IMG/VR virus record: IMGVR_UViG_3300048063_000336
Span: 1 to 38,448 of that record
Source: a virus
Length of the DNA stretch: 38,448 nt
Strand: one strand, 5' to 3'
In this document: one piece after another, positions 2,471 through 4,911 of the stretch
How the letters are laid out: every line of letters starts with the position of its first letter
How positions within the stretch are numbered: the first letter of the stretch is position 1
Notes under the pieces: model-generated
The model's input: only the letters and a program-made list of their open reading frames with translations
Database searches by the model: none
Told to the model about the DNA's origin: nothing
Translations under genes and position numbers: made by a program

Positions 2471-2725
2471 ATGATGTCACCAAAAACAATCGAAAGAGTA
2501 AAATGGCTTGCTACATTTATGTTTGTATGTGCGGGAACATTGATATCTATTAATATTCCTGAATCAAAATACGCATTTCCGTTATTTGCAACAGGACATA
2601 TCATAGCAATCTATGTGTTTGTGACATTGAGAGATAAACCACTAATTGTACAAAATATATTTTTCTTATGTATTGATGTGATAGGAATATATCAGTGGTT
2701 AATAGCGCCTACACTTTCTTCTTAA
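2471..2725 (+). CDS. Small three-helix membrane protein
   Basis: 84 residues with three predicted membrane helices (about 11-28, 35-52 and 58-79) and a short cytoplasmic N-terminus KTIERVK, so an inner-membrane protein. The last helix contains QNIFFLCIDVIGIYQW, a pattern like the Q-N-x-x-F...N-x-x-G-I-Y-x-W motif seen in short bacterial membrane proteins; a function cannot be assigned. Start choice is supported by GGAGAG 7 nt before the ATG. Its 3' end overlaps the tail of the convergent GIY-YIG gene by 17 bp. Late-type promoter motif 22 nt upstream. Confidence 0.6.
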   Translation: MMSPKTIERVKWLATFMFVCAGTLISINIPESKYAFPLFATGHIIAIYVFVTLRDKPLIVQNIFFLCIDVIGIYQWLIAPTLSS

Positions 2726-3146
2726 CGCTTTTTAGATATTCAGTAAGAATCTTCGAACTTCCTACTCGGACATTGATAATGCCATTATAGTACTCATCTG
2801 TTTCAAGTACTCTGCGGTCAAACTGTTCTTTGGCTTCTACATAACTTAACGCACCACGACTCGGACAATAATGTAAGATTTCACGTGAAAACTTATCGGG
2901 GCCTAATTTTTTTACATCGGCATTCAAGTGGTCAGAAGAACCCCAATATGTTCTCCAATCGCTTTCTTTATAACCACGTCTTTTGTTCTTTCTTCCTTTA
3001 AGTGGTGGTTTAGTGGTTTTAAATCTTGCTAACTTCTTACCCACGTACTTTTTGTTATTCGTAAGATTCGTAATAAGATACACAAATCCCTCAACATCTT
3101 CAGGTAATTCATTTACGACTTTATTATTATATGTCCATTCACTCAT
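2709..3146 (-). CDS. GIY-YIG family endonuclease-like protein
   Basis: 145 residues. The N-terminal part carries the GIY-YIG signature in the form FVYLI at 21-25 and KYVGKK at 33-38, followed by a basic stretch rich in K/R (39-58) and, near the C-terminus, ALSYVEAKEQFD, which could supply the catalytic glutamate. GIY-YIG enzymes are single-domain nucleases; phage versions include homing enzymes of the Seg type. No separate DNA-binding domain is visible, so it may be a conserved phage nuclease and not a homing enzyme. It is convergent with the membrane-protein gene, and lies downstream of the large minus-strand RNA, so read-through expression is possible. A perfect palindrome sits 25-45 nt before its start. 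Confidence 0.7.
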   Translation of the reverse strand: MSEWTYNNKVVNELPEDVEGFVYLITNLTNNKKYVGKKLARFKTTKPPLKGRKNKRRGYKESDWRTYWGSSDHLNADVKKLGPDKFSREILHYCPSRGALSYVEAKEQFDRRVLETDEYYNGIINVRVGSSKILTEYLKSVKKKV

Positions 3147-3170: not shown

Positions 3171-3190
3171 ATTAGGTCTAAAGACCTAAT
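3171..3190. other. Palindrome upstream of GIY-YIG gene
   Basis: ATTAGGTCT and AGACCTAAT are exact inverted copies separated by 2 nt. In RNA this would be a compact hairpin without a U-tract; in DNA it could be an operator. It ends 25 nt before the start codon of the minus-strand gene. Confidence 0.45.
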
Positions 3191-3299
3191 ATCATCAGAA
3201 ATTTCTTTTCGTTCCACTCAAAGAAGATTTCCTCGATATTTATTTCTTCCATATAATTATATATCTATATTATAAAACCATTATTTTATTACTTGTTCA

Positions 3300-3784
3300 G
3301 TTTGGAAGACACAATTGCCCATCCCTGGACAATTGCGAATGAAACTTGTTCTTGTTCATCAGATTCTATGTCTAAGTTAGCCGCTAGTTACGGCGAGGTC
3401 GGTTGGCGATTCCCTCTTAACTTAGTATTGCGTCTTTCGACCCAACGGCACTTTGAATAATCCACATAGAATAAAATATCATCAAAGTTGGTAGTGCTTT
3501 AAAACCTACCCGCGGTTTGTACATTTCTGTACGGTAAATACTAGTCATTCAATTACCTTTAGAGTAACGAATGTTTTGATACAAACAGTTCTTGTGGTTA
3601 ACGAGAAGCAGTGACGGAGTTCATCCCATCTTATCCGAACGTATGTATAATATACGCCCTCAATCCCGAGTCGGCAACCCGACTAACAGTTCCACTATGT
3701 ATTGGTTTATTGTAATCATTATTAGCCTTTGGGGATTTATATTAGAATTAAAAATTGTTTTTGAATCGATTTGTATTAGTTATG
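3300..3784 (-). ncRNA. Large structured non-coding RNA
   Basis: About 500 nt on the minus strand with no reading frame, starting just after a strong sigma70-type promoter. Stems found by eye (5' to 3', plus coordinates): 3684-3679/3674-3669 with GTTG loop; 3656-3652/3644-3640, 7-nt loop; 3573-3564/3556-3546; 3532-3528/3523-3519 closed by a GAAA tetraloop; 3510-3506/3494-3490; a 9-bp long-range stem 3472-3464/3371-3363; inside it 3445-3439/3434-3428 with a second GAAA tetraloop; and an 8-bp stem 3425-3418/3379-3372 that closes a compact three-way junction of hairpins 3416-3395 and 3394-3380. A final hairpin 3337-3327/3320-3310 has two G.U pairs that would be A.C on the other strand, which fixes the orientation. 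The 3' end is not defined. Size and phage context recall the large phage RNAs GOLLD and ROOL, but no homology could be tested. Confidence 0.7.
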
Positions 3785-3790
3785 TTGAAC

Positions 3791-3819
3791 ATACTAACAC
3801 AACGAAAAGGGGATGTCAA
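3791..3819 (-). promoter_or_regulatory. Strong sigma70-type promoter, minus strand
   Basis: Consensus TTGACA (3819-3814) and TAGTAT (3796-3791) with exactly 17 nt between. It lies 29 nt past the end of the gp51-like frame, and the only thing downstream for 500 nt is the structured RNA. Confidence 0.75.
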
Positions 3820-3847: not shown

Positions 3848-4081
3848 TTATAAAATAGGTGTTCCAGCGTTTTTACTGAGTTCAAAGTTGTCTTGTACTA
3901 TCTCATTTAGGTATTCTATGTGATTAGCCGGCATCTCGTGGAGTTCTGATATACTTACGCCCCCTCTCATATACCAAGATAGTTTATATAGAGTTTTGTG
4001 TAGATTATCAAGTTTTTTTAGATAAGACTCTTGCTTTTCTACTATTTCTTCGCCGCTGGCAGTCTTTAACCAGCCGAGGAA
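3848..4081 (-). CDS. 51: gp51-like baseplate hub assembly segment, read by -1 frameshift from gp26
   Basis: A 77-residue frame that begins inside the end of gp26, in the -1 frame, and has no start codon at a plausible place: the frame opens only at 4099 and its first ATG (3970) would give 40 residues and remove half of the conserved part. Its C-terminal part, WYMRGGVSISELHEM...HIEYLNEIVQDNFELSKNAGTPIL, resembles the short gp51 hub-assembly proteins of T4-like cyanophages as I remember them. With the A AAU UUU slip site at 4087-4081 the product is a gp26-gp51 fusion of about 354 residues (277 + 77). Its likely role is as an assembly chaperone for the baseplate hub or tape measure, made in small amount relative to gp26. 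Confidence 0.7.
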   Translation of the reverse strand, partial: FLGWLKTASGEEIVEKQESYLKKLDNLHKTLYKLSWYMRGGVSISELHEMPANHIEYLNEIVQDNFELSKNAGTPIL

Positions 4082-4087
4082 AAATTT
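4055..4087 (-). promoter_or_regulatory. Programmed -1 ribosomal frameshift signal
   Basis: In the gp26 frame the codons read gtA AAT TTT: a canonical X XXY YYZ heptamer A AAU UUU at 4087-4081. After a 6-nt spacer, GCTGG (4074-4070) pairs with CCAGC (4059-4055) around a 10-nt loop that contains the gp26 stop codon. Slippage by -1 enters the gp51-like frame exactly. Confidence 0.75.
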
Positions 4088-4911
4088 ACAGGGTTCATCT
4101 CAAACTTTATCTTATCTTTGTGATTACACGATTCACAGGCAAACTCAAAGGTTGTCAAGTCTTCGGGTCTTTTAGTTACAAGTTCTACCTTATCATTGAC
4201 TTCTTTTATAACTGTTGCTGGTACATTGTTCATAAACTCCATAATCATTTCTTTATCTTTGACAACTTCATCTGGTGTTTCAATTTTGTCAATGGCATTT
4301 ATTAACAGGTCCACGTTTTGTTTTGAAACCTTTCTAAAACTAATCGCAAACTGCTTTGCTAGTTCCATTTCAGTTATTTCGTTGTCGCCTACTGCTTGAA
4401 TACTTTGTAAAATACGTTGTTGTTCAACATCAATCAATGCTAGTCTTGTCATACTTTCTATTTTCGGAGGAGTAATATGAATTTTTAAGTCTCCGTGTTC
4501 AATAGGGTCAACTTTGTCTATTTCTGGAAACTTTTCAAGGACATTGTTTATGTCTATGTTATATTCTGCTTGTTCTTCACATTCAGAACAAGTATGTAAA
4601 TGTGTAATAGTTTTTCCATATGTTGCATATTTTATCGCTAAGAATAGTAAGTCAGCATCTATGTTACATAATTCTCTAGGGTCTGGAATTGACGGAACAC
4701 AACTTTTTATAACATTCATCAAGGCTTCACCATTAAGAAGAGCATCTGGATTTTGCATTGATATCTCATCAATAGCAGTCATAGGCATGATAGGAATTTC
4801 ATCTAATATTGTTTTAGGAATTTCCGGATTAAATCTGCCGCCAGTAGGAATTTGTACATAAATCGTTGGTTTACGAAAGTACTTAGATAATGGATTTAGT
4901 TTTTCGCTCAT
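4066..4911 (-). CDS. 26: Baseplate hub subunit gp26
   Basis: 281 residues, a member of the T4 gp26 baseplate-hub family as judged by its N-terminal half (PTIYVQIPTGG, then the SxPDPRELC-like region near 74-82). Two cysteine pairs, C108-x-x-C111 and C259-x-x-C262, could form a split zinc ribbon; T4 gp26 is shorter. A purine-rich AAAGGAAAT precedes the ATG. The final codons hold the -1 slip site, so most ribosomes would stop at 4066 and a minority continue into the gp51-like frame. The gene is divergent from the tape-measure-like gene at 5033, with a late-type promoter motif on its own strand at 4986-4993. Confidence 0.75.
   Translation of the reverse strand: MSEKLNPLSKYFRKPTIYVQIPTGGRFNPEIPKTILDEIPIMPMTAIDEISMQNPDALLNGEALMNVIKSCVPSIPDPRELCNIDADLLFLAIKYATYGKTITHLHTCSECEEQAEYNIDINNVLEKFPEIDKVDPIEHGDLKIHITPPKIESMTRLALIDVEQQRILQSIQAVGDNEITEMELAKQFAISFRKVSKQNVDLLINAIDKIETPDEVVKDKEMIMEFMNNVPATVIKEVNDKVELVTKRPEDLTTFEFACESCNHKDKIKFEMNPVNFSSAG

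Follow-up and report, generated by a model that had tools for sequence, protein, structure and literature searches.

The phage-encoded RNA GOLLD assembles into a homo-oligomeric 14-mer cage, and ROOL into a homo-octamer cage. Both are large RNAs of phages and prophages that often lie near tRNA islands and have been reported to form RNA cages (PMC12286853). GOLLD, with the example env-38 coming from a marine sample, is an elaborate phage RNA of more than 500 nucleotides (nt), and ROOL env-120 comprises 659 nt with multiple helices and pseudoknots (PMC12286853). In addition, the most abundant transcript of ICP1, a lytic phage without tRNAs, is ~800 nt long and lies in a ~1-kb gap without open reading frames (ORFs) between gp139 and gp140 (PMC7567579). 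Here, a further large RNA is described from the marine virus record IMGVR_UViG_3300048063_000336, the 38,448 bp of which are referred to as the window. On its minus strand, a T4-like baseplate hub gene (4911-4066) is followed by a promoter, by ~610 gene-poor bases containing the RNA gene, and by a SegE-like GIY-YIG endonuclease gene (3146-2709). The predicted RNA is about 500-600 nt long and intricately folded, and it represents, on comparative sequence evidence, a new family of large structured RNAs encoded by marine jumbo myophages.

Comparison with Described Phage RNAs

The initial annotation had regarded the stretch as a large structured phage RNA with its own promoter, matching no known family and possibly new, and the comparative evidence (covariation, conserved promoters and the Rfam searches) agrees with it. 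At the gathering threshold, cmscan of the window against Rfam matched no family to this RNA; at E ≤ 10 the region gave only chance matches far below the gathering score, with no GOLLD, ROOL or intron family among them, and six diverse members of the family matched nothing at E ≤ 1. The catalytic core of group I introns was likewise without a covariance match at E up to 10. ARAGORN found neither tRNA genes nor a tmRNA in the window and in 13 related loci, and gave no support to a tmRNA or tRNA-like identity (tRNA-like domain, tag ORF). A description of this RNA was not found in the literature searched, with subscription journals largely outside the search; the family is thus novel relative to Rfam and that literature.

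As a long gene-free RNA with extensive covarying structure, the RNA belongs to the large structured phage RNAs. Like GOLLD, it exceeds 500 nt, is elaborate and phage-borne, contains no protein gene and combines a conserved 3' region with a more variable 5' region; unlike GOLLD, it does not match the Rfam model, has no tRNA genes nearby and is strictly linked to hub and nuclease genes. It resembles ROOL in its length, phage origin, multiple helices and pseudoknot, which are known here from sequence comparison, but again the Rfam model is not matched and tRNA genes are not found nearby. The large noncoding RNA of ICP1 is similar in length and gene-free setting, whereas it was matched neither by our 3'-domain model R1 nor by blastn and has different neighbour genes.

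Homologues in Marine Phages

Loci were collected from IMG/VR by scans that used the hub protein or DNA patterns, and the majority of them contain the RNA. About 90 IMG/VR stretches carry homologues, with 45 distinct 3'-domain sequences. In the first set, identity to the window across the RNA region is 67-100%; members collected later are more diverged, and locus L190 and loci L198/L199/L206 have mainly the 3' domain in common with it. Pattern matches at L185, L196 and L204 were discarded as chance matches located in GC-rich coding sequence. Some of the records bearing the RNA reach 342 kb. In the large records searched, model R1 found one confident copy per marine record, and blastn with a member of the far group found no second full copy. 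The predicted RNA is single-copy in these records and, with its fold intact, has been retained at a constant site in the genomes of dozens of giant marine relatives.

Outside these records, blastn with the region and with the distant member L048 found no homologues among 50,697 phage records, and model R1 had no matches among 12 cultured jumbo phages. A pattern scan of 84,980 bacterial and archaeal genomes gave five matches, none convincing; their best model E-values were 0.006-0.25 for loci preselected by pattern, and they were judged to be chance matches that provide no clue to the host.

Covariation and Fold

For 3800-3280, the predicted folding energy of the minus strand is -130.1 kcal/mol (z -3.13), with 0 of 100 shuffles as good, whereas the plus strand of the same region is no better than shuffles (z -0.06). 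The consensus energy of the alignment is -163 kcal/mol on this strand vs -123 on the opposite one. Moreover, several U-G pairs are fixed on the minus strand, such as pair 353/359, which is U-G in 29/29 sequences; strand-specific G.U pairs of the kind originally cited in support of the orientation are thus kept. These observations also bear on the possibility that the locus is a DNA-level element, such as a replication origin or a recombination or packaging site, which would use its repeats and hairpins as DNA and be transcribed incidentally. The adjoining nuclease genes, of a type involved in recombination and packaging, and the iteron-like CUAAUA repeats would fit such an element, but the strand-specific G.U pairs, the large energy difference between strands and the conserved promoters point to RNA, and this explanation is considered improbable.

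Covariation was analysed in an alignment of the 3' domain (A1, 34 sequences) and one of full-length RNAs (A2, 29 sequences). In A2, a structure of 104 pairs in 16 helices has 96.5% of cells paired, and 48 pairs show double changes in 336 cells (0 of 500 shuffles), while slid controls are 35-46% paired. In A1, 97.8% of cells are paired and 19/32 pairs are doubly changed, with 150 such cells (0 of 500 shuffles); when partners are slid by 1-3 columns, pairing falls to 28-40%. Because shuffling ignores relatedness, it is the slid controls and the repeated switches that carry weight. Covariation of the stems, the absence of which had been named as grounds for rejecting the RNA, is thus present in both alignments. 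The counts exclude helix 132-136/394-398 (84% paired) and a poorly aligned hairpin at columns 47-73, and an ACUAGU/ACAAGU pairing from the first consensus fold was dropped since it breaks in several clades.

The pseudoknot GUUGG/CCAAC has one varying pair, which is G-C in 20 and A-U in 14 of the 34 sequences and broken in none; the switch is found within several clades and therefore arose more than once. RNAalifold, which cannot draw pseudoknots, paired GUUG locally with CAAU. This local pairing is practically invariant, so that comparison neither supports nor excludes it, and it is mutually exclusive with the pseudoknot. The features of the locus, all on the minus strand, are as follows.

4066..4911, minus: upstream gene for a T4-like baseplate hub protein (PF12322), extended in the -1 frame as far as 3848
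3791..3819, minus: sigma70-type promoter TTGACA-17-TAGTAT with TG before the -10 (extended -10); predicted RNA start about 3784
3696..3784, minus: A/U-rich leader (about 90 nt); CUAAUA motifs lie at 3779-3774, 3745-3740 and 3725-3720
3660..3719, minus: short ORF ATG...TGA, predicted peptide MITINQYIVELLVGLPTRD, with a Shine-Dalgarno-like AAAGG at 3730-3726
3594..3695, minus: 5' domain (covariation), a junction of H2 (AGUCGG/CCGACU), H3 (CGGGA..UCUCG) and H4 closed by H1 (GUGG/CCAC)
3487..3573, minus: middle hairpins H5 (3573-3546), a variable GUACAGAAAUGUAC hairpin and H6 (3513-3487), from the alignment
3363..3472, minus: 3' domain (covariation) with long-range H7, GAAA-type hairpin H9, three-way junction H10/H11/H12 and the pseudoknot (3446-3442 with 3406-3402)
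3312..3335, minus: hairpin H13, CAAUUGUC...GGGCAAUUG, at the 3' end of the core RNA
3237..3243, minus: ATAAATA in front of the nuclease gene, a motif match resembling late promoters of T4-like jumbo phages
3174..3240, minus: gene-proximal module H14-H16, conserved and covarying, with the last hairpin AGGUC-UUUA-GACCU
2709..3146, minus: downstream gene for a SegE-like GIY-YIG endonuclease (145 aa), replaced in other clades by a PD-(D/E)XK resolvase-like gene

The structural elements proposed from the single sequence were recovered. The long-range helix of 9 bp corresponds to AUUCUAUGU/ACAUAGAAU (3472-3464 / 3371-3363; 8-9 bp), and the compact three-way junction to H10, H11 and H12 (3425-3372). 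Both GAAA-capped hairpins were found, GUC-GAAA-GAC at 3441-3432 and GUACA-GAAA-UGUAC at about 3532-3519, although the latter is absent in some relatives. H2 is 100% paired with 4/6 pairs doubly changed, and in H15 8/9 pairs are doubly changed. The extent of 3300-3819 given for the RNA was too short at its 3' side, where conserved RNA reaches past 3300 to about 3174. Similarly, the ornate multi-stem fold stands, but the first ~90 nt (about 3784-3696) form a leader outside it, and the covarying pseudoknot competes with the local GUUG/CAAU pairing. No conserved or shared ORF was found in the core among 29 members, and a protein-coding reading of the core was rejected. Additionally, a short motif is repeated on either side of H13 (about columns 394-400 and 470-478), as ACAAG/ACAAG, GGACAG/GGACAG or GGCAAG/GGCAAG, changing in step between clades. 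The two copies may be protein sites or alternative pairing partners.

Promoters and Leader Peptide

Promoter-like sites number 17 in 5 kb vs 18.2 expected by shuffling, so the promoter of the window means little on its own. Nevertheless, the consensus minus-strand sigma70 promoter of the initial annotation (3819-3791) has a counterpart in nearly all relatives: a sigma70-type site scoring at least 10 is present somewhere within the roughly 330 nt that precede the RNA in 45/47 distinct members vs 12% of shuffles. Its placement varies by clade, being intergenic in the clade of the window and inside the 3' coding region of the hub gene in others.

Between the core RNA and the downstream gene, a second putative promoter was found: loci L069 and L106 have TTGACA-17-TATAAT, and the other members of their clade have close variants of it. 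In the clade of the window, ATAAATA occupies this interval, and ATAAATA has been reported as the late motif of phages CBB and GAP32 (PMC5259590). Judging from these motifs, a separate promoter probably serves the downstream gene in these two clades.

CUAAUA motifs occur in more copies in many relatives than in the window. The short ORF overlaps hairpin H2 and terminates at the invariant CGGGATTGA, its coding sequence ending at the conserved CGGGAUUGA. An in-frame ORF of 15-24 codons with an upstream AGG/AAGG is present in 36/43 distinct members, while the other two frames have an open ATG in 3 and 0 of these members. By inspection, small length differences cancel in L186/L197 and the frame of the ORF is preserved. 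The short ORF is thus likely to be translated.

Neighbouring Genes and Mode of Action

The order of hub gene, RNA and nuclease gene was found in all clades examined, but the nuclease gene itself is not constant. A GIY-YIG gene lies downstream in the clade of the window, in L186/L197 and in L187/L191, and PDDEXK_15, a RusA-like Holliday junction resolvase by PHROGs, is encoded in the remaining clades. In L190 (1-4113), the most divergent member, two genes lie between the RNA and the resolvase gene; by eye only, one is sulfotransferase-like and the other short-chain-reductase-like. The nearest cultured relatives of the hub protein are found in the giant phages Sinorhizobium Phosso, Agrobacterium Atu_ph07, Vibrio 2.275, PA5oct, 121Q and CBB. 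By sequence, the carriers of the RNA are jumbo myophages and marine relatives of the giant 'Rak2-like' phages.

The SegE-like GIY-YIG gene adjoining the RNA might suggest a self-splicing or mobile ribozyme, group I intron-like or derived, that moves together with its homing endonuclease, and the GIY-YIG protein weakly matches group I intron endonucleases, below the cut-off. However, even at E ≤ 10 no Rfam intron matched, and no gene is interrupted: the hub frame together with its -1 extension stops at 3848, ahead of the RNA, the next gene begins after the RNA, and exons are absent. Many divergent members have the resolvase-like gene instead of GIY-YIG, and the RNA is present as a single copy at one site. 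A ribozyme of this type is therefore highly improbable.

The reading preferred here, to which we assign a probability of roughly 55%, is that of a stand-alone RNA made early and acting in trans. Early transcription by the host RNA polymerase (sigma70) would run from 3784 to about 3300-3170; the first part of the RNA would be translated into a leader peptide of ~19 aa ending inside the first domain, and the remainder would adopt a compact fold and function in trans inside infected cells, in a structural or protein-binding role, as has been proposed for GOLLD, ROOL and the large RNA of ICP1. This reading is supported by the covariation, the strand bias, promoters at differing places in different clades, the core without an ORF and the constant site; the likeness in length and absence of a gene to ICP1's most abundant transcript was also counted in its favour. 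Because the next gene swaps between unrelated nucleases while the RNA stays, the RNA does not appear to be tied to the function of that gene, and the swapping together with the separate promoters of the downstream gene favours a stand-alone RNA.

The main competing explanation is a giant cis-acting leader, in which the ~610 nt would be a 5' untranslated region controlling the translation or timing of the nuclease; the short ORF would then sense ribosomes, and H14-H16 would be the switch near the start codon. In nearly all members the RNA is directly upstream of the nuclease gene on the same strand; the leader is favoured by this adjacency, by the short in-frame ORF with its Shine-Dalgarno-like site, by the conservation of H14-H16 immediately ahead of the start codon and by the absence of a strong terminator. 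Nevertheless, the RNA is retained when the downstream gene is swapped (PD-(D/E)XK, GIY-YIG, or another gene first in L190), a separate promoter often precedes that gene, downstream of the core RNA, and cultured relatives hold a different large RNA in the gap on the opposite strand. A fold of about 500 nt with a pseudoknot also exceeds the needs of known leaders. Accordingly, a cis-acting leader is regarded as unlikely, though it deserves serious consideration.

Several observations weigh against a stand-alone RNA. The RNA is always on the same strand as a nuclease-type gene and adjacent to it, or two genes before one (L190), and a strong terminator is absent between them. H14 pairs sequence from upstream of the putative late start and covaries, so that its transcription must begin further upstream in some members at least; a part of the transcripts initiated at the upstream promoter probably extends towards the nuclease gene. 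As for the leader peptide, 4/43 members lack the short ORF or have it out of frame, and 3/43 encode only MPTRD; the overlap of its conserved codons with sequence conserved as RNA weakens the case for selection at the peptide level.

A Second Large RNA in Cultured Jumbo Phages

The same gap between hub and endonuclease genes contains a different conserved stretch of ~650-790 nt in eight cultured jumbo phages (L121, L124, L125, L127, L128, L129, L131, L132), including 121Q, CBB, GAP32, Munch, Hallingskeid and XaC1 (Rak2-like). This predicted RNA, termed E-type, runs on the opposite strand and has a conserved promoter, TGAAAC/TGGAAC..TATAAT, similar to the TGAAACG/TATA class of promoters reported in CBB and GAP32 (PMC5259590); 35/68 of its predicted pairs are doubly changed, and it matched nothing in Rfam. 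Homology to the marine RNA was not found by blastn or model R1, and a common GUGCCG..UUG motif was dropped as a sign of homology as the E-type RNA is read from the other strand. Both RNAs are large and covarying, lie between hub and resolvase genes of related phages, have their own promoter and are not in Rfam; they differ in strand and in number, the marine RNA being single-copy and the E-type RNA present in 4-5 copies per genome.

These copies were counted in the five genomes searched whole (121Q, CBB, GAP32, XaC1 and Hallingskeid). They have a single orientation within each genome, even in CBB, where the genes of the hub locus run opposite to those at the other four copies. The spacing is rather even in 3/5 genomes, namely Hallingskeid (gaps of 65-80 kb, chance about 0.0001) and CBB and GAP32 (about 0.005), the corresponding values being 0.07 for XaC1 and 0.05 for 121Q. 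As phages of E. coli, Pectobacterium and Cronobacter carry the E-type RNA, it offers a laboratory-tractable system.

Other features were noted in these phages. The hub gene has an apparent -1 frameshift end at A-AAU-UUU (AAATTTTTCC; 4087-4078, minus strand), which would lengthen the C-terminus as far as 3848. Marine relatives have retained both the site and the -1 frame extension, and a comparable -1 arrangement, at a ATTTTTTC site, is seen in 121Q, CBB, Phosso and Atu_ph07. In PA5oct (L120:5526-7039), the resolvase is preceded by a 1.5-kb gap nearly devoid of annotated genes, parts of which are repeated at about 13 kb and 246 kb of the genome. The window also contains a manA RNA (RF01745; 26586-26789, minus strand; 56.1 bits, just over the gathering score), a riboswitch candidate known from marine phages (PMC2864571).

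Implications

It is tentatively suggested, with somewhat less than even confidence, that the family constitutes an undescribed RNA class, a stand-alone RNA or ribonucleoprotein machine of infection (e.g. a ROOL/GOLLD-like RNA-only assembly, or a ribozyme) that has its own leader peptide and has been kept while marine jumbo phages diverged deeply. Phage RNA families of more than 500 nt are few, and GOLLD, ROOL and the ICP1 RNA are without an established function; the present RNA adds one well-supported family. A covariance model, a secondary structure and a strictly defined genomic location are available for it, so that transcripts of the family can be searched for in marine metatranscriptomes and the RNA can be prepared for cryo-EM.
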